A stretch of DNA of 64,000 bases from Larimichthys crocea (lineage: Eukaryota > Chordata > Actinopteri > Sciaenidae), in the NCBI RefSeq assembly GCF_000972845.2, contig NC_040032.1, forward strand, positions 471,583-535,582, given 5' to 3'. How positions within the stretch are numbered: position 1 is the stretch's first letter; each line of letters begins with the position of its first letter. Of this stretch, positions 39,901 to 57,630 are shown piece by piece. The notes beneath the pieces are model-generated. The model did no database searches and was not told the origin of the DNA. It worked only from the letters and a program-made list of their open reading frames with translations. Position numbers and translations under genes: made by a program.

Positions 39901-42900
39901 CTTATTAGCCAATCTCCTTCTCTCTCTCTCTCTCCATCGGCCTCTCTCTCTTTCTCTGGGGATATCTTTCCTAAGTGCCTTCTACAGTAAATCAAACCGC
40001 AAGGCTTTCATTCAACCAAAGCTGAGGGATAGTGCTTACATCTGGCCTGCCTGAAACACAGAAATGCTTTATCAGGGGAAGAGATGGAGAGCAAAACAGT
40101 CAGACAGAGAGCCAGAAGAATGCATTGTCCTGATCTCACATGTTGACACAAAGGATGAGAGTGGATTGTAATTATTCTCATAGAGATGAGAGGTGTGGAT
40201 TCAGTGGAGGGGGGGGGGGCAGAAGGGGTAATGGTTGATGAATTGATTATCAGTCCAAATAGGGAAGGGATGGTGTAAATAAAAGATGGAGGACATAGCT
40301 GTCGGTAAAGCAGAGCTAATCACTTAAAAGCCTTAACGCAGGAAGTACATAATCAGCATCCAGGCATCAGTTAATAAGAGGCAGTCAAACTCCATACTCC
40401 TTTGATTGCAACAAAGACTTGTTTTGGGTGGAGGCTTCTTCTGTTTCTGTTTCTTCTTTTCTATTGGCTAGAACTGTTTTTGACAAAACAGTGAATTTAT
40501 TGTGATATTTTTAGAAAATAGATCCTTCATTTGGGATGTGATGTGAAGACAGCTTTGGAGTGAGTTAGAAGTTGCAGACTAAATTGAGTGATTGATTCAG
40601 TGATTACTGTTTTTACAATGTTCTTATACATAAGGGTCTATGAAAAATTTGTTAATCTGTCGTCGGCTGTACATTGTTTACTTCTGTGTAGCGTTGTCAT
40701 TATGAGCTAATGCTGAAATACAGCCGCAAAGCCCAGCTACTATGGCTGTAGACTCTTAGCTATTAGCTATTATTCTTAGTCTTAGTCATTTCCTGCCTGT
40801 GTTTCCTTAAAACACTCATAAATATTGTGTTTTAAATCTGATTGCCACAAGGCCTTATGATATCCTCCACACTATGCACTTGAACATATAAAAATGATGA
40901 TCACCTCTTTCATTGAATTTTGAGTGTTTTAATCAACCTTGTTACATCTGTTGTGTTCCCGGTCAAAAGTGACCGCCATAGGAAATGAATGGGTATCCAG
41001 AATATATACATTCATCAGACCAAAAACATCCCCATACACACCACCCCAACTCACTCACTCACTCACTCACTCACTCACTCACTCACTCACTCACTCACAC
41101 ACACATTTCAGACTGAGCAATGTATTTTGCGGGTACACATCTCTTTCCCGTGCTTATGTGCCTATCCCCCACGTGAACCAACTTTCTGATGAAACATGTT
41201 GATACAACATATCTGTATCATATCTTCACACAGACTGAACAGGTGTCTGTTATGTGAACCCACACAGACCCCATATATATAGCTTGATGTTTGCCTTGCA
41301 TTCCTTTTACTCTGAGCACAATGAGTAGGCGACTGACCAAGCAGTTCTCTGTCAAAGAGGTTCTGGTCCAGGTTAGTGGACATGATGAAGAGGGCACTGA
41401 AATCGAACCAGAGATAGAGGAGGATGTCTCAAAAGTGGAAGACAACACAGTTTTTGATCCAGACTTTGAGGAGACTGAGCAGGCACCTGAAGAACAGGCA
41501 CCTGAGAAGACATTCCAGTTCAAGAGTGGACACTTGCTCTGGTCTTCATCCCCCCAGGACAGAAGAAGTAGAGTGAGAGTGGAAAACATCATAAAGTTGA
41601 CGCCAGGGCCAACACGGTATGCAACATCTTGTGTGGATGACATCAAGTCCAGCTTCCAGCTCTTTTTACCAGAGTCCATTGAGGGAATTATACTGGAGAG
41701 TGTGTTTGGGGACACCTTGAGAGAAATTGACCTAGTAGGCCTCCAAGCCTACATAGGTCTGTTGATTTTAGCAGGAATATATCGCTCAAACAATGACACA
41801 ACAAAAAGTCTGTGGGATGCAGAGTCTGGCAGGCTTATATTCCATCCTATACTATGTCCTTACAGCAGTATATCCATATCCTTTCAAGAATTATTTGATT
41901 TGATAACAGAGATACATGATCCGTCTGCTGATGAAATGACAAACTGGCTGCCATCAGGAACATTTGGGACAGGTGGGTGGAGGGACTAACAATTGGTCGC
42001 TGTTCCTTCAAGGTGTACATTCCAAGCAAACCAGGGAAATATGGAATAAATATCTGGAATATGCAGGTATACATGAGGAAACCCAGTACTGGAAAGACCG
42101 AAAAAAACCAGGGCATGCGTGTTGTGCTGGACATGACAACCAGTCTTCAAGGGCATAATATCACATGTGACAACTTCTTCACATCATATGCTCTTGGTCA
42201 GGAGCTGCTGAAAAGAAAGCTCACCATGGTAGGGACAATGAGGAAGAACAAGCCTGAACTTCCCCCTGCACTGGTATCGACCAGAGGAAGAGAGGCACTC
42301 TCATCAAAATTTGCTTCACTGACACACACACTCTTGTGTCATATGTTCCCAAGAAGAATAGAAATGTCATCCTGATGAGCATGCTACACAAAGACAGTGG
42401 ACTGAAACAGTGGACAGTTTCAGTCCAGTCTGATGAGACAAATGTCATTTTACCTTAAGAGCAGTTACAGTAAAACAGACTGGTCAATTTTGACCGGGAA
42501 CACTAAAGTAAGGGGCGGGAGGTGAACACAACCGGAGGGTTAAAGAAAGGCAAGAAATGTATCCTGTTCCTATTTGTCAATCCAATTCCAGATCATTTGA
42601 TGTTTCTCTTGTGTTTTCTCATTCAGGTCCTACAAGAGCAGCTCAGGAGTGAATAACAGGAGGACTGAGCTCTTCCTGAAGGAACATGAACATCTCAGAA
42701 AGTAAGAGATTTCTTTAAAAATCTCTTATCACTTAAGAACAGAATGGTAGAACTTAATATTTTAGTTTTCACTCTCTGAAAGGGAGGACCCTGTTTACAG
42801 TTTGTTCTGTTTGAGTATGAAATTTAAGCTTCATGACATAGTGGCCTGAACAATTTCCACAATGTATATGTACACTACACAGCCCTAATCGAGTTATAGC

Positions 42901-43774
42901 TTCTATGTATTATTCTATTATATTCTATTATATCCTTTGTTATCTGAGTCCATTATGACAATGACTCCTCTGAAATCAGTGCACTGAAGGCAGAAGCAGC
43001 AGACTAACAGTGATTTACATAAATTCATGAACCTACAAGTTCTGAGAAAGCTCATTATCTAATACCTGTAATTAAACACTTTAGCAAAGAAAGTTTTTCT
43101 AGTGGGCAGTGTGGTGTAAAACATGACTATAGACATACTTCACACGCCAGTATTTGTACCTGATTATGTGTACATGCACATATGCAGGTAAGTGGATAAC
43201 TGGACATGCTATTAATCATGTAACCTCGTGGCTGAATATATTTCTGATGCACTTTCTCGTGACTGCACTCAAACAGAGGATTTTTTTAAAACACAGAACA
43301 AAGGAGCAGTAAAACAAAATGTGGTGAGAAAAACATGTCAAAGCTGCTCTACATGAGGGATAGACATTAACACCGAAACATACCCATGTCATATGGTTTG
43401 ATGATGGTGGTTAACACTCATTAACATCACGTTTCTTATGGCTGATAATCTATTTCTTCAGCAGTTTCACATGAGAACATTCAAACAGAGACAGAACAGA
43501 ACAAATTGCAATTGATTGCAACAACGTGTTCCCAGTGAGTAGTGGAACCGATGAGCAAACTTGGTCATCAAGAGTCCAAAATATTGTAGTGGAGATGTTC
43601 CGATCAAATTCTTTTTGGTCCTGATCCAGAACCTAACATTAGGAGTCTGCCGATAGCACAGCTGGTCTGATATGAGTTGAATCAGAATACTCATGGAATA
43701 AAAGTTATTAACAACACCTGAACTGATCTGATGTCTGCTTTAGTGAATCTTTAGAGTCACTCATATCAGAGTCA

Positions 43775-43816
<42 letters not shown>

Positions 43817-46800
43817 TGGTATATGAGAACTACAGAGCCCAGTCAATGTTAAGGATAGCAAAGCTAGCAGGGTGAGGTGAACATAGTTAGACCAAAGAGG
43901 TCTGTTTTTGTTTGTTTGTTTGTTTTAGCCTGGATTGGCTCAGGACATCTCTAGTCTTTGAATGTCTTAAGTTCTTGAGCCATCATGAACCTCCAAAACA
44001 AGCTCAGTGTTCCCCTTTCTTCAAAAATATATTCCTCCCTTTGGTAATCATGTTGGCAGTGACACAGGAGAGGACACCACGCTTCTAGTGATGTATCTTG
44101 GTGTTGATCTTGATGTTTAGTTAGGTTGAGATCCTTTTACTGTGAAGGTCACAACATAGTATGATTAACAGGTAGAAAGTCTACCACAGGCTGGATGATC
44201 TCTCTCAGGTATTGGATACATATAAGGAAAGTTTTACAGGCATTTCCCAGAGAATAAACCCTCATTACTTTGGTGATTCTGACTTTTCATCTTATGTAAT
44301 CATATGCCATAATATTTGTTTTTTTAAACAAGTACCTGTAAAGTTTTCCCAGCAGCCTCAGTTGACTGTCACATTCACTGGCAGCGAGGTAACATTTGGA
44401 CCGTCGGTGTAATTAAATACAATCCCTGAAACTGATTTCTTCTGCACGTGTCATTCATAAATAATTGTTTCCCCCATCTATACCTGTGTTTTATTATTAG
44501 GATTTATAACTAATTCACACCACAGTAATTATTCTTGAATACTCAGTTGTTATTGTTCAGAGGTGAAACTGTCCAAAATAGTTCAATAAAGACAATAAAA
44601 CAGTTATCTCCAAAAAACTTTAATCGAGACAATCAGACAGACAAGTTTGAAAAAGTGCTTTTAAAAAAACTTTTTTTGAACATTAATCTGATCAATCAAC
44701 ATGTCCACAGATTTGAATGAATTAGCATTTATTTCTTTATGTTAGGACGTACTGTGCTGTGGTCAATGGTCTTTTGTTCTGCGATTTCTGGGGGGAAGAA
44801 GTGGAGACAAAGTGACGACAAATACACAAGAATGTTTTAGATAATGCCAACAGAAAGTTTAAAATGATGCATATATGCTTTCAAATAATGCAAGCCCACC
44901 TATGTGAACACATCCAAACTGTCTTACTCACATTGACTAATGTTAATATTGTTCCCTGCACCAATCCCTCCAGCATTGGACCCGAGCACTGTGTTTGTTG
45001 CATTGCCAATATTAATTTCTACTCCCTTTCCTCCTGTTTGTTTACAATGTAAAATACATAAAATCACATCACATTAGTCAGAAATCATGAAAGCTATAAG
45101 AACCTTTCCAGCCATATAAATTACAGGACTTACCATTCACATTGCAGTTGTTTCCTACACCAATGCCTCCTGCATTGTCTCCAGCTGTCATGTTACCTAT
45201 GTTGCCAATGGCTATTTTGACTCCCTCACCTCCTGTTGACATACAGAGAATAATAAAAAAAAATCAGTGCTTATCAAAATACATCCATCAATATTTGCTG
45301 CAGTGCTGTGATAATTCCCAGAGTTCTAATATTGGCCAGAACAGTATTAACTTACTGCAGAAATATCCGTTTCGGTATTATATATCAAAGATACATTTGA
45401 GGTCATTTAAATAAGTGATGCCTTCATTATGTCCCAGCAGATCTTTAAATATCCGTATCAGTGTGCTATCTAAACACACCACCATCTCAGCCCCTTGTCT
45501 TTTTTGACTGCACTGAACACATCAGTAACAAAACAGAAATCATGTGAGACAGGTGATTCACCCATTATATTGCAGTTGTTCCCTGCACCAATGTCTCCTG
45601 TGTTGGATCCAGTATTCATGGTGCATATGTTACCAATACTGAGTTTGACACCTTTTCTGCCTGTTGAAATACAATGAATAATGAATAAATATAATCATAC
45701 TTGCATCGTAAGTCTACAGGTTCTAATTTTATTACATGAGTAACCTATCAGAAACCATTAAAGCGCTCCTTTTTATGAACTCTAATATGAGATATAGTAC
45801 TCACCACTGACATTGCAGTTGTTATTTGCACCGATGTCTCCTATGTTTTCTCCAATGGCCATATTAGTTATGTTACCAATATTGACTTCATTTCTTGTCG
45901 GTATTCCCTGAAGGAGTGGATCCAGAGCTGCCTTGTCTTTGTGTGTTACAGGATTATCATGTCAACATAAGCATATAATAATCATAATCATATCATCAAC
46001 AACAACCTGTGTGCATAGGTTGAACTCACCGCTAATACTGATGGCATTATCTGCGCCAATCTTCCCTGAGTTGTCCCCGACAATGATCTTCTCGGTGTTA
46101 CCAATTCTGTGTGCCATTGTTCCTGCTGAGATAAAAACTGTAACAAAAATAAAACATAGTTATGAAATCAGTGTTCAGACAAAAAGACAACATTGGCTAA
46201 GGATCGGCTGAATGTCTGAGATGTAAAAAAGATTTCAAACATAAAAACCTGTGTAGAAAGACAGAGTAATTGAAGCTGATTAACCAGAGATACAGACATG
46301 CATGCACTCATTATCTTACCTCTGTTCACAAATTTGTCTGTGCTTGTTGATATGACGAGAGAAGACTCGTGAGACTTGTAAGCTTTGTGATTGTCCCACA
46401 CGTGTATAGATGATTTTGGGTGGGTGACTTTCTTGTAGTCAGCAGGAGGTTTTTACGGTCGGCTCAAATCTTCCCACAGAGTCTAAAGAGGAAATTTTGT
46501 CAGCTGAGTTTCATTCTGAGAACTGATTACTGAGCGAAAACATGTTAAATATGAGCATCAATATCAGTCATTTTGTGTTTGACTAACCAAAGACAACTTT
46601 TTAGCTTCAACTGCATGACTCTGTGAATTTGAAATGGTGCCATTATAACCAGAAAGAACTGTGCACATTATCATCTCATTAGATCGAGTAACTACATTTC
46701 AAACACACACAGACACAAGAAATGTTAAATGACATTCAGAAGATGCTTGAAATGTTTGCATGAATTGTCGGGCTCTTTCCACCTTCAGTGAAGATACGAT

Positions 46801-49800
46801 CACCCAGTATATTAATATATTATTATAACATTAACATTAATATTTTTGAAGATCAGCACCAGGAAATGTTATGTAAAAAAAGTGTGTTTTACATACAGTG
46901 TATGCTAAGATGAGATTTATTTGTAATACATAACTGACATTGATTTTATGCCATTTTCTAAACATTTTCTGTACTGTGATACAGACTGTATCATATGTGC
47001 AATATATTATTTATATTGTGATATTTATTTGAATCTTACACTTAACATTTTCACTCCATCAGTTTTATATCCTCTATCTTTTAGGTCCTCTATGAAACAT
47101 TTATCTGTACCTATTTATCTTCCATACCAGTAAATTTAACTGCGCAGTTCAAAGTTTAAAGACACTGAATATATTGACATAATCTCTTGTTTCATTTGCA
47201 AATGTTGGAGGTCATCTGAAGCACCGAGCACAGATATAAAGCTTCTTTGACCGACAGTCTCACTTACAGCAGCAGCTGTCTATTAGAAAAACAATCTGCC
47301 ACGGAAGAGTTTGTTTTCTCTTTGCTGTATCTTTGCAACATAGAGCAAAGTCATATTCATTTCGACATTCGCTCACACTTGGCCTGTGTTCCCCAAAGTG
47401 AGGCTGAGCAATGAGAGCTGTTAGACAGGCTGCCAGAGGTATGGAGCAGGATGATATGACCCAACATTAAAATCTTAAAAGTATTTAACGATGGGGACTT
47501 TGAAAACAGCAACGTGCAGACAGCCCCATGAGAGAGATGCATACAAAAGCAGGCCTGTATCAAAAGACTTTTTTGTTTTGTTTTTTGCTAAGTTAAGTTT
47601 TTTGCTAATGCGTAGTCAAGACTTCAACTGTTCATCTTCTTCTACCTTTATTTCGTGTTTGCAGGATAAATTGTATAAAAATGAATGTACTTCTTAAGCG
47701 CCTTTATCTCTTGCAATGCATACCCCTTTTTATTCTGAAATGTTGGCACTCAAAGAAATGAGTTGTCCTGCACTGCCTAACTCCTTACATTACTACTGGG
47801 CTGCTGTTGTGCGGTCTGTTTTGCACTGGTGTTACACTGACAATCAACCTCCACCATGGCTCCAGATTGAGCTTGCCTAATGAAATGACTCTGTTGGCTC
47901 TTTTGTCCCTCCCTCTTACATCAGCTTCATTACGACACTCCAGTAACAGTGTTGTAAGGAACTGTCTCAAGATCTGGACTCAGTTGAAACGTCATTTTGG
48001 ATTCCAGGCAGTTCCTCTTTTATCCCCTGTGCACTCTAACCCTCGGTTTCCTCCTTTTATTACTGATGAGGATTTCACAACCTGGGAGAACTGTGGAAGT
48101 GCACCTCTTAAACATCTCTAGATTGAAGCAGTATTGGCATCTGGCACATTCAGTGCAGCAGAAAACCCACTTCTTTAGATACTTAGAAGTCAGACTTTAT
48201 TTGGCTTCCATAGCTTCCCTGCTGTCAATCCCTCTACAATAACTGAAACCATTTTAAATATTGACCCTTACCTCAAAGGTACCATTTCAGTGCTGTACAA
48301 CACACTCCTGATACATCAGTGCTCAAATTCTAATACTTTACGCACTGCCTGGTGTGAGGAACTTAAGATAGAGATAAAACCGGATGTATGGCAGTCTGCT
48401 CTATGTGCATGTTGCCCAGTAGGTGGTCTTACCATACTCTTCTTCATTTTAGAAGTCTGTGTTTGACTCACTGTCCTGTAATTTTTAAAATGTATTTATT
48501 TATTTTCTTACTTCTTACGGTTATTTTTATTTGGTCATGGGTTTGTGAGTCCATATGTGTATCGCTAATTTTGCTCTCCTGTTTTTGGCAACTCGACTGC
48601 CTCTGTTTGCATTTACTTCATTTCGTTTAATAGACTTTTGAATCTTGTTTACCATGACATATGTTTGAGACCCTATGTCTAGAGCTCTTTTTCTTGTTGA
48701 AAATTCAGTAAATAAATCATATATAAAAAAACAAAAACATTTCAAACACGGCTATTTAAATCTCTGTAATACTTATAGATCTCAAATCCTGCTTGCAATT
48801 TCTTTATGACATTTATGATCCTTCTTATATTCCTATCCATTGCTGAGCTACTGCTTAAACAAACATGATTTGTATCCAACTGTACAATGAGTTTAGACCT
48901 ATTAGAAAAATGCCATTTTCTTTTCTATTCAATTTCACAAACAACAAGAGTCTGCAGTGGTGGTCTTTGGATTATGGGAGGAAGCCGGAGTACCCGGTGA
49001 GCACTCACACAGACACAGGGAGAACATACAAACTCCACACAGAAAGAACCAGCTGAGGTTCAAACCAGGAGCCTGGATTGCTGTGAGCAGACGGTGCTAA
49101 ACACTGCACCACAGTGTCACCCCAAATAAAAAAAAATAAAAAAAGTAAATATATCCAGACAAGACAGTAGAGCAGATGGACTCTTTTTATTTCTACTTTC
49201 TTTACATTAAGTCTTTACTAACCATTAAATCAGGAATTTAACATTTGTTTTTACTTACTACTAACAACAACAACTACTACTACTACTAAGACATTTCAAT
49301 TGTATGAGAATAATGGTCACCGCTTAATAATCTTAAGAGTGGTCTTTTTGTCCATCTGTTGGAGGGCTGTTTCCTAAAAGGGAGAGAAACAAAGTGAGAA
49401 CGAACAAATAAAAGGACTGATGTGAAAATGTACATGATATTTTCTCATGTCTGATACTGTGGGTTATGCAGCAAATCAGTCTTTGACTTCTTACCTTAGC
49501 TGAGCTTAATGCGATTGCCTGCACCAATTGATCCTGAGTTATTACCAACTTTAATATTGGTAGTGTTGCCAAGATGTGTTCCATCATCCAGTCCTCCTGT
49601 TGAAATATTAAAATTTAACAACAGTAACTCAGATTTCTACCTTAGAGGTGCTAATATCTAAATCATGAGAAATTAATCAGAAATAAATTGTTCACATGGT
49701 CCCAGCAATATCAGGAATAACTCACCGGTTACATCATAGCTGTTCTTTGCTCCAATCAATCCTGTGTCTGCATTTGTCCCTGTAACATCAATGTGAGCGG

Positions 49801-52800
49801 TGTTGCTCAGAGCAACATTTTTCCCAAGGCCACCTGTAAGAGTAGTGATGAGAGAAAGATTTAATGAAACTTTCAATACAACCTGACAGAAAAGTACAGT
49901 CGCGCTCATATTTACCTTCAACTGCAACTTCATTTTCAGCACCAACCTTCCCTTCGTTGTCTCCAATGTTAACATCATCGGTGTTGGCAATGTCTGACAT
50001 TGTTCCTGTGAAAATCTGGACAGACAAAGAATCATGAGAGCACCATAAAAAAGGTTCAGACAAAATGTTATAAACTTGTTTCTCTGGATTATTTTACATA
50101 AGCACAAAGCCTAAGAGAGTCTGTCTTAACCTTGACATAAAAAGCACAATAACAGATAAGATTGAAGTACATTTGTTGTATTTAAAAGAGCCAGACATGA
50201 GACAAAGAAACAGTGCTCATGTGGACTTTGTCTTACCACTGGTCTCAGTAGTTTATCCTGTGTTAGGAAGTGAACTTGCTGAATTGAGGAGAATTGGTGC
50301 TTTTATAACTGCAAGTTCACGTCTTTGGGGGTTTAAGAGGAGGAACAGGTGTTTTGTTTGTTCAGCAAAAATCTTCATTCCCACACAGTCTAAAGGGGAT
50401 CTGTGTCTTGCTGTGCTGCATCAGCTAAGCTTAATTTCAAGAACTTGAAATTGTTTTCAGAAATCATCACGTGTCTATAAAGGGGACAATGAACTAGTGT
50501 TACATTACTTATTACAAAGTCAGTGTGGAGCATGGACCCTCATAAGACTACCTCATATTGTGGGAATAATTACCTTCACACATGTTGTATTGTTCTTAAC
50601 AGTATCCACAAAATGAACAGTTGTCATGAAGTTCACAGCAAACAATTCATCGCGTTTACATCCTTTAACAAAATATGTTTAGTCATGTGACTCTTGTATC
50701 TCTTATCTGTGTAAGTTGGCCCAATATTTTCTAGACCTGCTGGTTTATTTGTGATATTTCATAGCATGTCCTGATTTTCATTTGACATGTAACATTCAAA
50801 CACAGTTATGACAGTCATGTTAAAAAAAGTTCCACACTGAAAACATAAAAGCACTGTGAGTCATGAGTTTGAGCTCTGACATTAACCTGACTGTTTGAGA
50901 TGAAGCTTTAGTTTCAGTTTGACTTTTAGTGGTTATGAACTAAAGCCTGTGAATCAGCAATGTGGTGTCTGGGATTTTATTCTGTTTAAAGAATCGTAAC
51001 GTTCAGAGGAACAAATAAATCGTGATTTACTGTTCAAGTTCCATATTGAGGTGACATTTTGTGACATTGAGGGGCATTCTTGCTGCTCTGTGCTTTTCCC
51101 TGCAGTTTCTTTTTCCTTTCTAGAGTATTAATGTATACACTTGTTTTAAAGTGAATCCAGTAATCAGTGTGTGTTTTTGTGAAGGTTACATTACACCGGT
51201 GAACACATTTTTTGTTGAGTTAGGTCTGACAGCTGTTTTGAACTCATTTTTGGATGCGGAATCAAAAACTGATCTCAGTTTTTCTTTATCACGTCAAGTT
51301 TATGAACTATAAGATCCCTGTTTTCTTAAAAAATATGAAAAATACTGCACTTAACAGATATGTGCTTGTTTGTTGAATCCTCATGAATTTCAAAATCTGC
51401 ATCATTGCTGTCACTGCGTTCTTCAACATCACTCAGATCTTCTAGATGAGGTAGTTGTTCAAAAACTGGCACTGGAATTCAGCTGAATGAGGCATTGGTC
51501 TTATAGCTGACGGTAGATTAGGAGATTCTGTTTTACTTTTATTGTTCTTGTTAAATCCTGATGTTTTCACTAAACAAAAGTCTGTGCAATGATCTTTTTG
51601 CTCTCGCCAAACCATGGGGATACCAAATGCCAACTTTTCACGTGTCCCTTTGGTCCACTTCCGTAAACTCTCGACACACTGCTTGCACACTTTGTGAGGG
51701 GCCCATGGCTTGTCTTGATCATAGAGTTTTACTTTAAAATATGCAAAATATGCTTGTTTGACAAATGCACTGATGTTTGCCCTCTGACTTGGAATGGTGA
51801 AACTAGCACAGATATAGCAAAAGTAGTCAGGGTTGTTTAGGCATTTACGACAAGAAGTAGCAGGAGCAGACATGATCTGGAACAAAGGAAATATATACCT
51901 ATGGAAATCAAACACTAAGATGGAATAGTTCCAAGCTTTGAAAACTACAAAAACAGCATCAAACCAAATAGAACAACGGTATGCCCGTGGTTACAAGGTT
52001 AAGAGAAAAGCCAGCGCAAATCCTCTTCATTCTACTATGCCAGCTTTCTGTGTGCAGATGTTGATAGTACTGACCTATTGGGAGCTGCACACACATCTCA
52101 CCGCACTGTCGCAATTGTGACTGAACAAACAAGTTGCCACGTAGCTGTAGATGAGTCCAATCGTAATCAGCTGGCAAGTCTTACTACAGCTGATCAGTAG
52201 AATTTTGCTTATCTGGAGGGTAAACTGAGGAGAAAAAACTTGACGCAATTTTGGAAACAGCATGCCAATTTTAGTTTTAATCAGGAGAACAACAGATCAA
52301 CAGAGTGAGACAATATTACGTTCTTTAGACTACTAGATCATTGGGCAGCAGTAGCTCAGTCAAGATAGAGAGGCTGTAGAGACTTGGCTTGGGAATCAGA
52401 GGGTGGCTGGTTCAAGTCCAGTATGGAGGGTGGAGTTGTAGGTGCCACTTCACCTCCTGGGCACTCTTGAGCAAGGTCCCGACAGCCTAACTGCTCCCAG
52501 GGCGCCGCTGCCCATCACTGCACATTTGCATGTCAATGAGCCCTTTATGTGTGTGTGGTTATATTTCGGGTGAAACATATGTAAAAACTTAAAATATCTA
52601 TTCTATTCTATTCTGTTCTATTCAATAGCTTCAGAGCACCAATCACAGCTCTGTCCATAGATTTGGATATAGCCCCACCTTGCTGCCACTCAGTCATAAT
52701 ACACCAATTGGCTAGTCTGATAATGACGCTGTCATTTCCTTTCACTTTTTTATTAATTTAATATAATTCAATTTAATTCTATTCAAATCTCTGTAATACG

Positions 52801-54743
52801 TGAATATGGTGGCAGTGATTCACAGGTCTCAAATGTATGATGTTCTCCTAATCCTCCTAATAATCCTACTACTACTTAAATAAACATGATGTATCCAACT
52901 CTACAATAAGTCTAGGCCTATTAGAAAAATACCATTTTCTATTCTATTCCACAAGCTACAGCCATATTAGCAGCTCTGTCAGGCTGTTCGGCTGACAGTG
53001 GCGATTTGAGCTGAATGCGACCATTAGCATGTTAACATGTTCACAGTGACATTGCTGATATTTAGTAGTTGTAATGTTAACCATGATTGTACATGTTAAC
53101 ATTTATAGATAAAACCACGATGGGAACCCTCATCCAGGAAGTCAGTGAATCACACAAGTCAGTTAACTTCACCCTCCGGGTTCATGAATGTCAGCATTGC
53201 ATAGCAATACATCATGATTAGTGTTGAGATATTTGGACTTAAAGGGGACATATTATTATATTATTCCACAAGTTCACACAGTTCTCAGGTGTCTTAATGA
53301 CATGTCTGTGAAATTCTTTGGTCAAAATTCCCCATGGATCAAACACAGCAGCTCTCTCTGTACCCCGTCTGTAACTCTCAGTGCCCAGACAGCAGGTTTC
53401 AGTGTCTGCTCTAATGAACTGCTGGCTCATTCCGCCCGGAACCTGAGTTTGGTGTCAGGCTACCATGAGATCATGAGGTGAGATGGAGCACTGAGATAAA
53501 TATGGTTCTGGTTCTAGTCTATTAGTGATGTCACTAGGGGCTCAAAATCTGACATGCCTGTTTTAAAAACAAGCCACAAGATTCAGATGCCATTTAGTTC
53601 ATTAAGAATGTATCAACCATGTGTGTTAGATGTTTGTTCACAGAGGGCAGCATGGTGGCGCAGCAGTTAGCTGTCATTTCTTCAAACCCCAGCTGGGGCC
53701 TTTCTGTGTGGAGTTTGTGGGTTCTCTCCGTGTCCCACAGATTAATTGGTCACTCCAGCCCCCCGCCACTCTGATTTGAATTAGCAGTTAATAGATGGAG
53801 GTTCTTATAGAATGACATCCTTGTTGGAGTTGAACTTAGATAGTGAGCTGAGCTGATCTATCTGGGGCCAGTGGTACCAAGGGGCCAAAAGTCAAATCAG
53901 TGAAAAGAAATAAAGCAAAGACATTTTAACACAGCATATTGACTTTATTTTCATTTGTATTTGATACATAATCTGAAGAATCTTCATCTTTACTGATGTC
54001 AAAGAATAAAATGTAACATTTGTTATCACCAGTGAATTCCTAAGAGAGAAAATATTTGAGAAAAATGGAGAGTAAGAAAAGACAACAAATTATAAATAAT
54101 TTATTATTAACAAACACAGACATAACACATGGTATATGCACACCCACACACATTCAACAGTGTCCAATGAGAGCAGTAAATTCGTGATTCTTTCTTACCT
54201 CAGCTGATGTTAATACGGTTCAATGAACCAATCGATCCTGAGTTGTTACCAACTGTAACATTACTGATGTTGCCAACATTGGACTTTGCTGGGATTCGTC
54301 CTGCTGAGATACCAGGAACATGAGAGATTAAAAGCAGTTCCTCATGCTCAGATATGACAATGACCTCTGAACATCACAGTCACAAGAGAGATAACCCACC
54401 TGTCACAGTGTAGTTGTTTTTTCCTCCAATGCATCCTTGGTTTGTTCCAGAAACATGAATGTTGGTGATGTTACCCACAGAAACATTTTTTCCAGTATCA
54501 CCTGTCAGAGATGATGGTCTCATAAAACTCTCCAGGTGATCCCACAGGAAGTTACACTTCAGAGTTAGACTTACCTTTGACATTGTACTTGTTTTCAGCG
54601 CCTACCTTCCCATCATTGCAACTGATTAAAATGTTAAACACCGGTCGTGCTGAAATATGGAGAAAAAAAAGTGATGAAAGAAAAAATGCTGTGCTGTTAA
54701 ATTCCATGTTCACACTCTGGCTGTCTGTTTGGCTGTCTGTCTG

Positions 54744-54774
<31 letters not shown>

Positions 54775-57630
54775 CTAATGTTATTGATCAGGACTGTTGA
54801 ACATGATCACTGCGGACACCACGTCCGGTTAATGAGTAACATGTCAATGTAAACAAAAGCAGGACAGTGTGCTTGACCTGAACATGATGCAGGTGTGATC
54901 ATCATTTCAAAGATCTTTTATTGATTCACTTTATGCCCTCATTTCCACTGAAACTAAAAGAGGGTGACAGTGTTACATCAGATTACAGATTACATCAGCG
55001 CATTTTTAATGCTCAAATCAAGAACTGATGATGAATAACACACTCAAAGAGGATTTTCATAAATAGGTCATGTGACTGCTACTCCCACCATGTAAGAAGG
55101 AGAGCTACCACAGGTCCTTCATTCGAGCAGCTGGCACACTCTTTAACACCATTTTGCTAAATCAACTAATTATAATTAATAAACATTTAGATATGAAAAA
55201 TGAGTCATGATGTGCCTACATGAGGATTTCATGTCAGTACTTTATAATATAAATAAGAAATGACTAGTGAAAAGATTGAATTGTTGCATATTTGAATGTC
55301 AGTAAAGCATTTTGTAGCTTTGATGATGTTTTCCAGTTTTCACTGCATGACAAATAATTTCAGCAGTACACTCAGTATATGTCAACATATATAAATACAG
55401 TACATCAGTTAAGTGCTATCACCTCTTCGAAGCGCCGTTTAAAGACTCATATTTATTTCTTGGTGGTGGTTGTTTGCATCATGCTGAGATTCAGCTCAGT
55501 GGTTTGAACGTTAAAGCTGTTTAATGTGAGTGTGTTCTGAGAAACCAGTTTCACCATTTCTGTTTAAAATGAAGGAATTTGTGTATTTAATTATTCATGT
55601 GTACTTAGTTTGCTAATTATTTGAGTGACTACATGCTAATACGTGTAATGGCAGACAGGCCTGGTTCATGTCACAGTGAACCATTAGCTCTGTGACTTAC
55701 TGTAAATAACCAAAGCCCTAACTAATTGTATATCAGCCTCTCAGCCACAACGAACCAGAAGTGTTTCCCTCAAATGGATCCTGCAAGTCTCAAAACATGC
55801 ATGTCTCTCCAGCTCCAGCCGGCATCTCATTTGCAGCACACACAGCTGGCCTCACTTTGAAGTATGCACAAAAATATAATGTTGTATTCTTGCATAAAGC
55901 TGCATTTCATTTTTTGTGAGTTTTTTGTGGTGTTGCTCATTTGATAAAGTTTAGCTTTGCTCACTTGTGAAGTTTTTAAAATAAAATTGAGCAAACGTTC
56001 GAGCAAACATGGAGTCTGCTGTCATCTGCAGCACATGTAGCCTGTTTACTGTTGAAGCTTTAAACTGTTGCAATTATGTGATCATCAGGCCAAATAGGCC
56101 CATCCAAAATGTGTTCACAAACCAGTGATTAATCTACTTTGTGAGGTTTTCTAAGTACTGAAGAAGTTTCATGTAATAAGGTAGTAATTAAGTAAAGAAA
56201 GAAGAACATAAAGAAAAGCATGAAGCTGCCTCGCCCGTGGACTTTGTCAGCTAATGAAGAACTGAGAGAAAAAGCAGAGGACAGCAGTAGATAGATGGTG
56301 GGAGAGGTGGACGGATAGATGGAGGAAGTATAAAGCTTAGTATTGATTTCTGGTCTCCAGTGGAGTCTGCCAGGATGCACACTGCTGCCCTTATATGCTC
56401 TGCTCAGCTCCGGACTGAACACTTCATTTTTCTGTCCGTCACTTATCTTATCAGCTAATGGCAGCTGATGTACAGCTCGTCCGTGTGCTCTCAGGCTCAG
56501 CATCATACATCTGCGTGTCTGTTCTTCACCTAAAACAAATAACACAAGCATCAGTTTACCATCCTGAGATTTCTACCTCTGTGTTCAGAGTGGTTATATT
56601 AGAGATTAATTGGCTTGTGATATGATGGGATTTTGACCAATCAGATTCGGAATCTCCCCCCCAAAAAAGCCTCCTCCATTAACCAGCACTCTCTCCAGTC
56701 TCACAGGAATCATGGGAAGTGCTCCTTTTATGATTATAGACCCAAAGAGCTGTGTGGTTTCATGGCACAGGCTCCTGCACTGTACTGTACTTCATGACTC
56801 TTAATCCAGGAGAAACATATCCTGTATGTTTGAAATGTTTTTAACAGAGGTGCATGATGGGATGGATGAAGGATTCCAGGCTGACTCTGTAAATCAAAGT
56901 GTTTCAGTTGACTTCATCCGACCTCCCTCTTTTTTTTTTCCATTTCACAGCTCAGATAGTCTTATTGACAACGCAATAAGGTAAGCTTTATTGCTCTGTT
57001 CACTCTCACTCACTCATATCTATCTCTCTCTCACATACACACTTCCAAACATTCAAACCAACTTGGTGTGGAGCTGTGTAGAGAGATGCTATGTGCATCT
57101 TTTCCTGCCACTAATCCCTCGTGGTTTCTCTCGCTCCAGTATCGCCATGGCTACCAAAGAGAACATCATGTTTCAGCGTGGGATGCTCAAGTCCATTCAG
57201 ACCAGGGTCACGACTTTGGCCAGTATCCTTTATCATTTAAATCTTTTGTCCTCCTTCTCTGCATTCACCATGTCAGAATTTCACTTGTACGGAGCTAACA
57301 ACACAACCCGTCCACATGAGGCCAGAGTAACAAAACCTCACTTACAGTGAGAGCTGCTATGACAGTAAACTAAACTATTAGGCTCCATTTAGTATCTTTT
57401 TCCTGCTGATGTATTTTCCCTGCTGCTTTCTGTCTCTTACTTACTGCAAGGAAAGGAAAAACTCTTCTTAATTATTTTCCTTCACCACACTTCCCCACCC
57501 CTCAGATCGTTTCCCAGCCATCAACAATCTCATCCAGAAAATCAATTTGCGCAAGAGGCGGGACTCTTTAATTCTAGGCGGGGTGATTGGCGTCTGCACC
57601 ATACTCCTGTTGCTATACACTTTCCACTGA
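36943..57630 (+). CDS. gosr1: Golgi SNAP receptor complex member 1 (GS28 SNARE)
   Basis: GOSR1 is a Golgi Q-SNARE that acts in ER-Golgi and intra-Golgi vesicle fusion. Nine coding exons fit splice consensus and phase: 36943-36970, 37506-37626, 38087-38162, 38547-38654, 39222-39313, 42627-42701, 56951-56980, 57140-57222 and 57506-57630 (TGA). Together they give 245 residues, against 250 in human. Blocks include LRKQARQLENELDLKLVSFS, the AALMHTLQRHRDILQ helix, TELFLKEHEHLR, then the SNARE helix (IAMATKENIMFQRGMLKSI, with the central Q in FQRG). The C-terminal membrane anchor is LILGGVIGVCTILLLLYTFH. The start at 36943 aligns with the mammalian MAA start. An in-frame ATG lies five codons upstream at 36928. 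Intron 6 spans 14.2 kb and contains the antisense repeat-protein cluster. Intron 5 carries a piggyBac relic. Confidence 0.95.
38660..39025 (+). mobile_element. tRNA-derived SINE with conserved core
   Basis: The head is like 'gcactggttaacactgttgt...aaggttcccggttcatacc', with an RNA polymerase III B-box-like 'ggttcatac'. The body has the core 'tgtgtggagtttacatgttc', and the tail is 'gacatgaacctgaacaggtt...gatagactccagctcc'. It follows gosr1 exon 4 by a few bases, in sense orientation. It is V-SINE-like by recollection. Confidence 0.65.
41049..41099. repeat. (ACTC)n microsatellite
   Basis: About twelve 'ctca' units inside the left end of the piggyBac element. Confidence 0.95.
41321..42457 (+). 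pseudogene. piggyBac transposase (PGBD4-like), broken
   Basis: The first frame (41321-41960) gives an acidic N-terminus then piggyBac-like sequence with VGLQAYIGLLILAGIYRS and SLWDAESGR. The frame then jumps near 41960-41980 to GRCSFKVYIPSKPGKYGINI, followed by VVLDMTTSLQGHNITCDNFF, where CDNFFTS holds the second catalytic Asp. The segment that should carry the first catalytic Asp (xVDEQ) is deleted at the jump. A further frameshift near 42310 leads to VSYVPKKNRNVILMSMLH, and the C-terminal third Asp and zinc region are absent. It is an inactive DDE transposase relic. Confidence 0.85.
42707..44700. other. gosr1 intron 6, proximal part
   Basis: No gene recognised. A poly(T) tract at 43778-43808 may be the reverse of a retroposon A tail, but no element body is clear. 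Confidence 0.5.
44728..44733 (-). terminator. Polyadenylation signal of repeat-protein gene A
   Basis: AATAAA on the minus strand ('tttatt' on plus) lies about 55 bases past the stop of gene A, in its last exon. Confidence 0.6.
44786..46117 (-). CDS. Repeat-protein gene A: G/N/I-rich tandem-repeat protein, unrecognised family
   Basis: Six coding exons on the minus strand fit splice consensus: 46117-46030, 45927-45805, 45660-45562, 45232-45134, 45033-44932 and 44787-44786. The encoded protein has 170 residues. Exon 1 gives MAHRIGNTEKIIVGDNSGKI and ends GADNAISIS. Each later exon encodes one 33-residue unit (exon 2 has a 40-residue version) with the pattern x(V)xIxIGNIxxM...G(D/S)NxGxIGxGNNCN(V/I). 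Examples are VKIAIGNIGNM and GGIGVGNNCNV. All internal introns are phase 1. Exon 2 stays in frame only if the acceptor before 45927 is used. The stop codon is split (T at 44932, AA at 44787-44786). No signal peptide, membrane segment or known domain is seen. The ATG sits five bases after an acceptor, with a non-coding exon upstream (donor at 46319). I do not recognise the family. Confidence 0.7.
46320..46491 (-). promoter_or_regulatory. Promoter and 5' UTR exon of gene A
   Basis: A donor 'gtaaga' at 46319 closes a non-coding exon that starts near 46375. 'ctatacac' at about 46403-46410 may be a weak TATA. Upstream at 46465-46491, minus strand, is 'cctctttagactctgtgg' followed by 'gaagattt'. 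A near match ('cccctttagactgtgtgg' then 'gaatgaagattt') lies at the same relative place in front of gene B. Confidence 0.45.
46495..47745. other. gosr1 intron 6, between gene A and L1
   Basis: AT-rich, no gene or transposon recognised. Confidence 0.45.
47750..48735 (+). mobile_element. 5'-truncated L1-type LINE
   Basis: Plus-strand translation gives L1 ORF2 carboxy-terminal sequence: LPNSLHYYWAAVVRSVLHW (about 47775-47835), LKIWTQLKRHFGFQ (about 47970-48010) and PPFITDEDFTTWENCG (48050-48100). After a frameshift comes THFFRYLEVRLYLAS (about 48165-48210). Stops follow, and an A-rich end lies near 48715-48745. It separates genes A and B. Confidence 0.75.
48960..49125 (-). mobile_element. SINE fragment with conserved core (minus strand)
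   Basis: On the minus strand it reads 'acactgtggtgcagtgttta', 'ttgaacctcagctgg', 'tgtgtggagtttgtatgttc' and 'ggtactccggcttcctccc', the same SINE family as at 38.7 kb. It ends at the 3' side of gene B. Confidence 0.65.
49186..49191 (-). terminator. Polyadenylation signal of gene B
   Basis: Minus-strand AATAAA ('tttatt' on plus). A 3' untranslated exon probably begins after the acceptor 'ccctccaacag' near 49360. Confidence 0.5.
49496..50000 (-). CDS. Repeat-protein gene B: short G/N-rich tandem-repeat protein, unrecognised family
   Basis: Three coding exons on the minus strand: 50000-49916, 49833-49726 and 49596-49496 (TAA, one base before a donor). They encode 97 residues. Exon 1 reads MSDIANTDDVNIGDNEGKVG and ends AENEVAVE. 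Exon 2 carries NVALSNTAHIDVTG and GLIGAKNSYDVT. Exon 3 carries HLGNTTNIKVGNNSGSIGAG and ends NRIKLS. Each exon is one repeat unit and introns are phase 1, exactly as in gene A. The two also share the 'gaaca' before the ATG and the leader exon arrangement. There is no signal peptide or membrane segment, so a soluble cytosolic protein is inferred. The protein is acidic at its N-terminus. Function unknown. Confidence 0.7.
50237..50400 (-). promoter_or_regulatory. Promoter and 5' UTR exon of gene B
   Basis: On the minus strand there is a good TATA box, 'tataaaag' (50307-50300), with a leader exon from about 50275 to the donor 'gtaaga' at 50236. Upstream at 50398-50368 is the motif shared with gene A ('ctttagact.tgtgggaa'). 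The leader splices to the acceptor just before 50005. Confidence 0.55.
50450..51360. other. gosr1 intron 6, no gene seen
   Basis: AT-rich sequence between gene B and the zinc-knuckle-like fragment. Nothing recognised. Confidence 0.45.
51370..51873 (-). pseudogene. Cys-rich zinc-binding-like protein fragment, frameshifted, probably transposon-derived
   Basis: From the ATG at 51873 the minus strand reads MSAPATSCRKC, a C-x2-C pair, then CYICASF and, further on, HKVCKQCVESL with another C-x2-C pair. This is compatible with a ZAD-like zinc-binding fold. The frame then runs through KLAFGIPMVWREQKDHCTDF to PMPHSAE near 51475. A one-base shift there opens a second frame (VPVFEQLPHLEDLSDV, then an acidic stretch) down to about 51370. 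I recall similar repeated sequences in animal genomes and infer a transposon origin, but cannot name the element. There is no downstream domain. Confidence 0.5.
52338..52620 (+). mobile_element. tRNA-derived SINE
   Basis: An A-box-like 'tagctcagtcaa' (52351-52362) and a B-box 'ggttcaagtcc' (52409-52419) are spaced as in a tRNA gene, but the cloverleaf is degenerate. A tRNA-unrelated body follows ('ttgagcaaggtccc', 'ctgctcccagggcgccgctg'), ending in a (TTCTA)n tail. It lies between genes B and C. Confidence 0.75.
52621..53640. other. gosr1 intron 6, no gene seen
   Basis: No gene recognised. Confidence 0.45.
53645..53775 (+). mobile_element. SINE fragment with conserved core
   Basis: 'ggcagcatggtggcgcagc' head, then 'tctgtgtggagtttgtgggt' and 'ttaattggtcactccagcc'. 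Same family as the 38.7-kb SINE, shortened. Confidence 0.6.
53944..53949 (-). terminator. Polyadenylation signal of unit C
   Basis: Minus-strand AATAAA ('tttatt') about 250 bases past the stop of unit C. An intron probably intervenes. Confidence 0.45.
54200..54649 (-). pseudogene. Repeat-protein unit C: paralogue of gene B lacking the start codon
   Basis: Three exons on the minus strand match gene B exon by exon: 54649-54575, 54501-54400 and 54300-54200 (TGA, one base before a donor). Exon 2 carries NVSVGNITNIHVSG and IGGKNNYTVT. Exon 3 carries SNVGNISNVTVGNNSGSIGS. Exon 1 keeps GKVGAENKYNV, but its 5' part differs: the stretch with the ATG in gene B is missing and the 'GDN' core reads 'SCND'. 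The acceptor before exon 1 leaves phase 1, so an upstream coding exon could rescue it, but none was found. It is probably a pseudogene, or a gene with an unseen first exon. No B-like promoter motif was recognised upstream. Confidence 0.6.
54716..54776. repeat. (TGGC/TGTC)n microsatellite
   Basis: Tetranucleotide array just upstream of unit C exon 1. Its presence may have aided loss of the unit C 5' part. Confidence 0.85.
54850..56940. other. gosr1 intron 6, distal part
   Basis: No gene recognised. A 140-codon minus-strand frame at 56129-56551 has no recognisable feature. Confidence 0.45.

Follow-up and report, generated by a model that had tools for sequence, protein, structure and literature searches.

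The closest described systems are proteins that build functional amyloid. FapC of Pseudomonas (PDB: 9u4u) is a bacterial functional amyloid with long linkers that is encoded in the bacterial fap operon, amyloids of the FapC type being marked by imperfect repeats that each make a single cross-beta layer, and CsgA is the curli protein. According to the excerpt of PMC7889193, mammalian RHIMs form signalling amyloids, and the excerpt of PMC12119088 gives (V/I)-Q-(V/I)-G as the RHIM core tetrad. Here we describe three paralogous genes, A, B, and C, located in one shared orientation on the minus strand at 44.7–54.7 kb of a 64-kb stretch of Larimichthys crocea contig NC_040032.1 (positions 471,583 to 535,582; hereafter, the window). 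The sequence evidence supports A, B, and C as genuine genes that are under selection at the protein level and belong to an unknown repeat family. Our reading, put forward tentatively, is that these are tandem-duplicated fish genes in which each exon would encode one predicted Asn/Gly beta-solenoid coil, and that their proteins may stack end to end as filaments.

Three repeat genes within an intron of GOSR1

The coding span of gene A extends from 54707 to 54199 (three coding exons, 111 residues), that of gene B from 50000 to 49495 (three coding exons, 97 residues), and that of gene C from 46117 to 44932 (five coding exons, 170 residues). Search strings that we take to represent GOSR1 matched the plus strand at 37.5, 38.6, 39.2, 42.6, 57.1, and 57.5 kb, several of them exactly. 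The first-pass annotation had placed three units of a single orientation within one intron of this gene, and the minus-strand coding exons are indeed found between these matches. Every intron separating coding exons (two in A, two in B, and four in C) is in phase 1 and positioned between repeats, while the final intron of gene C interrupts the TAA stop codon (T, then AA). A phase-1 exon per repeat with the core GNxxN...GxNxGxIGxxN is common to all three window genes, and the repeat core is also present in relatives. AATAAA signals are located downstream of A, B, and C, and in both B and C a first exon without coding sequence, followed by a GT donor, was recognized by eye.

Splice sites, reading phase, start, and stop had been described as fitting for A and B, which held except for the start of A, where the boundary had been set at 54649. 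Because the frame continues past this position to an ATG at 54707, and the added stretch matches the hydrophobic start of A-type relatives, the acceptor at 54649 is probably unused and gene A probably begins 58 bases upstream of it. In gene C the exon-2 acceptor is weak and ambiguous, being either 45927 or 9 bases upstream as implied by a public model (P0008), and the exon-3 donor, GTGAAT, is weak as well.

Comparison of the 11 window repeats gave a mean pairwise score of 59.3, whereas 300 shuffles of their residues gave 24.0 (standard deviation 0.8, maximum 26.5), so that the likeness of the repeats goes well past what composition alone would give. When each whole protein was compared with itself, similarity peaked at offsets of 34 (A), 36 (B), and 33 (C), each above the shuffle 95% level; a 17-residue half-repeat suspected by eye was rejected, as offset 17 did not exceed shuffles in A, B, or C. 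A repeat profile run over the six frames of the 64-kb window recovered these 11 exons (expectation value, E, at or below 7.8e-5) and, beyond them, nothing below E 2.7; the window supplied 10 of the 17 repeats in this profile, so that 10 of the 11 matched exons are represented in it by construction. Shuffles, offsets, and profile agree with the earlier description of small proteins made of repeat units, but the repeat length is about 29–37 residues rather than the 33–40 given there, the shortest repeats (29) being those that open B and C.

Selection on the encoded protein

To compare the coding sequences we used nonsynonymous (dN) and synonymous (dS) divergence. A versus B over 87 codons yielded a dN of 0.35 and a dS of 0.84, and the four C repeats, pooled over six pairs that are not independent, yielded 0.36 and 1.24; synonymous sites were saturated in the pairs C2-C5, B3-C5, and A1-B1. 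DNA similarity between the units tracks the exons and extends at most about 30 bases into the introns. Outside the exons, the clearest similarity lies upstream of B and C, which share a 22-bp block there (90.9%, E 0.001); a 30-bp match between A and C (E 0.014) resembles simple TG-rich sequence. The first-pass annotation had argued that the encoded residues are conserved through selection on the protein and had suggested a dN/dS comparison between paralogues; with dN below dS for A versus B and for the pooled C repeats, and intron DNA not kept beyond ~30 bases, both lines of evidence bear the argument out.

Relatives in other fish

Three database searches returned 7, 24, and 35 proteins at E limits of 1, 1, and 5, respectively; these sets overlap and include some frames of the window itself. 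Since the search requires shared five-residue words, absence elsewhere is not implied. All matches with a named organism came from fish, in 11 species: Larimichthys crocea, Perca flavescens, P. fluviatilis, Etheostoma spectabile, Lates japonicus, Pagrus major, Sparus aurata, Epinephelus coioides, Dicentrarchus labrax, Sander vitreus, and S. lucioperca. Two of the 11 were confirmed as Percomorphaceae by taxonomy look-up, and we take the remaining species to be percomorphs as well.

The L. crocea protein P0008 matches gene C at 98% over the full length. Its public model joins B and C into one, a fusion that we take for an annotation error, given that B possesses a stop and downstream signals of its own. 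Adjoining locus tags were found in P. flavescens (A-type 138980, B-type 138990, C-type 139000), P. fluviatilis (B-type 190460 and 190470, A-type 190480), and E. spectabile (A-type 641, B-type 642). A tree of 15 proteins places all six A-type rows (A of the window and five other species) in one clade with support of 100/99, and the B-type grouping is weak (67/90). A further member, P0035 (Perca fluviatilis PFLUV_G00150630), sits on a different contig of chromosome size, so that the family extends beyond a single cluster. P0033 (96 residues, three repeats) comes from an NCBI record of 335 bases, which has no room for two introns; this suggests a spliced transcript, though an intronless copy would look identical. 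For the Epinephelus protein P0028, no genomic contig is given.

These data also bear on the reading that the units are not genes but decaying repeats, or a mobile-element relic, whose frames stay open by chance. The two weak splice sites in C and the transposon-like open reading frames noted by eye nearby within the same host gene would suit it, but the presence of relatives across 11 named species, the adjacent A/B-type locus tags of three percids, dN below dS, intron DNA that is not conserved past about 30 bases from the exons, and the 100/99 support of the A-type clade make it scarcely credible. Translation into small repeat proteins is strongly supported, and the view of A, B, and C as real genes of an unstudied repeat family stands.

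Public entries such as LOC115594365 (Sparus aurata), PFLUV_G00190470/480, and EPR50_G00138980 to G00139000 belong to this family by sequence, under names such as hypothetical, uncharacterized, and, once, 'hyphally-regulated protein-like'. A search of the open-licence literature under seven such identifiers, the last of these names, and UniProt G8G930 returned no paper. Pfam, NCBIfam, and PHROGs scans disclosed no curated family that covers the window proteins and their relatives. The earlier statement that no known family has this layout is thus right as to named domains and curated families, but the proteins were already in public databases, unstudied. No known transposon or satellite, named beforehand as a possible refutation, was matched in these three scans, which did not extend to a repeat library such as Dfam. 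Family matches below the cut-off were set aside (RodZ_C, LppX_LprAFG, AVR-Pik_HID, EAD10, OB-fold, a-dystroglycan N2, Binary_toxB_2, FeoB_N, PRC, and DUF1455), as was the weak match of P0011 only to phrog_29268 (unknown function, E 0.0088). The PDB profile matches Scone-E (0.029) and Cake, presumably designed propellers, were short motif matches only.

Predicted secreted and intracellular forms

An N-terminal hydrophobic stretch was found in A-type proteins only. The A-type relatives start with this stretch followed by RP or a similar pair, and A of the window does likewise from the ATG at 54707. Peak 12-residue hydropathy near the N-terminus was at least 2.0 in eight of nine A-type proteins (the remaining one is an isoform) and at most 1.15 in 13 B-type proteins and in C. 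Between 4 and 8 sequons are present in the A-type proteins, and two Cys are conserved in 9/9; sequons alone do not separate the types, because B-type rows carry 1 to 6. A is probably secreted, and the N-termini predict that A acts outside the cell and B and C inside.

Predicted fold and proposed filament assembly

An all-beta repeat fold is predicted for one B-type relative, in which one repeat would make one solenoid coil. In the proposed mechanism, the genes are translated into small repeat proteins whose uncapped end coils would leave edge strands exposed. Because no other domain, and so no cap, is present at either end, chains may add end to end, by analogy with bacterial functional amyloids. 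Judging from the N-termini, A filaments would form outside the cell, and B and C filaments inside. As to their biological use (defence, or a mucosal or matrix scaffold), we lean towards defence or barrier, which is a guess.

A monomeric beta-solenoid that binds sugar, a surface, or protein, with A as a secreted glycoprotein and B and C as sensors or scaffolds in the cytosol, falls only a little short of the filament in likelihood, though itself a doubtful proposition. The confident AlphaFold2 monomer for P0011 agrees with it, and the sequons and two conserved Cys of the A-type proteins fit a stable secreted monomer; a profile match to a fucose-binding lectin is weak and not significant (E 0.17). 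On the other hand, these proteins are without a capping domain at either end, and inspection by eye revealed no obvious conserved binding site among the variable-face residues. An ice-binding or other cold-adaptation role on the same solenoid is very improbable. The repeats are regular and of solenoid type, and ice-binding proteins appear in the Foldseek list, but at E 4 and weaker, which is noise level, and we set ice binding aside on this ground; a regular Thr array is lacking, and relatives occur in Lates and Epinephelus, which we take to be warm-water fish.

If the filament reading is true, this would be a vertebrate functional amyloid in which layers correspond to exons one to one, so that layer number, order, and chemistry could be altered exon by exon. 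Even if the proteins are monomeric only, they would be a clear example of a solenoid family enlarged by duplication of symmetric-phase exons, with paralogues that differ in having a predicted signal peptide. Either way, perch-like fish, both farmed and wild, carry here an unstudied family whose repeat fold is predicted with confidence and which has no named domain.

Surrounding DNA

Feature coordinates are collected in Table 1. Near the start of gene C no TATA match was found. The 22-bp block upstream of B and C holds GTGGGAA, presumably a CSL-type site, which we did not use for any inference; A is without the block. An interferon promoter was considered and dropped: the only strict interferon-stimulated response element pattern is at 51117, which is >800 bases upstream of B, and A and C have none. 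Approximately at 52800–52960 and 48780–48950, downstream of A and B on the minus strand, two non-coding stretches look alike by eye and may belong to the duplicated unit or represent an old repeat. Between A and B, an open frame of 182 codons (51442–51990, minus strand) shows paired Cys motifs by eye and is likely of mobile-element origin. Upstream of the 42.6-kb exon within GOSR1, open reading frames on the plus strand (41288–42458) resemble what we take to be a broken piggyBac-type transposase.

Table 1. Positions of GOSR1 and of the features of genes A, B, and C in the window.
Feature	Position	Strand	Basis or remark
GOSR1 host	42655..57197	+	Coding matches 42655-42687 and 57135-57197 flank the cluster-bearing intron; search strings presumed to represent GOSR1
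Gene A coding exon 1	54575..54707	-	Predicted signal peptide and Cys-bearing repeat 1; ATG 54707; N-terminus aligns with P0009, P0010, P0012
Gene A coding exon 2, repeat 2	54400..54501	-	Phase-1 splice sites; repeat profile match
Gene A coding exon 3, repeat 3 and stop codon	54199..54300	-	Gene model; repeat profile match
Gene A presumed 3' untranslated region (UTR) exon start and AATAAA (53949)	53944..54039	-	Acceptor read from sequence; predicted only
Gene B coding exon 1, start codon and repeat 1	49916..50000	-	Gene model; repeat profile match
Gene B coding exon 2, repeat 2	49726..49833	-	Gene model; repeat profile match
Gene B coding exon 3, repeat 3 and stop codon	49495..49596	-	Gene model; repeat profile match
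Gene B presumed 3' UTR exon start (acceptor 49373) and AATAAA (49191)	49186..49373	-	Predicted only
Gene C coding exon 1, start codon and repeat 1	46030..46117	-	Gene model; repeat profile match
Gene C coding exon 2, linker and repeat 2	45805..45927	-	Acceptor uncertain; repeat profile match
Gene C coding exon 3, repeat 3	45562..45660	-	Weak donor GTGAAT; repeat profile match
Gene C coding exon 4, repeat 4	45134..45232	-	Gene model; repeat profile match
Gene C coding exon 5, repeat 5, last base first of stop codon	44932..45033	-	Repeat profile match
Gene C last exon, two bases finishing TAA, then 3' UTR, AATAAA 44733	44728..44787	-	
Gene B TATA box	50301..50307	-	Consensus match only
22-bp block upstream of B, shared with C	50378..50399	-	90.9% identity to 46471-46492, E 0.001
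22-bp block upstream of C, shared with B	46471..46492	-	Counterpart of 50378-50399

Comparison with known systems

Like the RHIM proteins (RIPK1, RIPK3; ZBP1, TRIF), the fish repeats carry a local [VI]-x-[VI]-G-[DN]-N motif, and in the longer form N-x-x-N-[VI]-x-[VI]-G-[DN]-N it aligns with the RIPK3 RHIM. This likeness invites a reading as an amyloid signalling family of RHIM type, with tandem RHIM-like motifs feeding RIPK-type necrosomes. In six comparisons with two RHIM segments, the scores were matched by 11, 119, 24, 27, 51, and 45 of 1000 shuffles, which is not significant after six tests, and a profile comparison gave P 0.0038, yet with a probability of 8.7% and a shifted register. The Pfam RHIM model (PF12721) matched human RIPK3 as a positive control (6.9e-11) and 0/22 distinct family proteins, the core tetrad [IV]-Q-[IV]-G is in none of the three window proteins, and A is predicted to be secreted. 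With shuffles reaching the scores as well, we rejected RHIM membership and regard the signalling reading as improbable. The window proteins also differ from RHIM proteins in having no tetrad Q and no kinase, Z-alpha, or TIR domain.

In contrast to FapC, the fish proteins are compact, and each of their repeats has an exon of its own. Profile A6 run against PDB sequences gave four matches up to E 10, none of them FapC. Comparison with CsgA gave a root-mean-square deviation of 7.5 over 68 residues, and the curlin family was not among the Pfam scan results of the family proteins, in scans run without a curlin positive control. A vertebrate functional-amyloid family independent of RHIM, in which each exon would form one cross-beta layer, lengthened by exon duplication into secreted glycosylated and cytosolic forms and convergent with FapC and curli, is conceivable, if on the unlikely side. 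The predicted beta-solenoid repeat protein is of a known kind, and what is new is a fish family with one exon per coil and with putative secreted and cytosolic forms.
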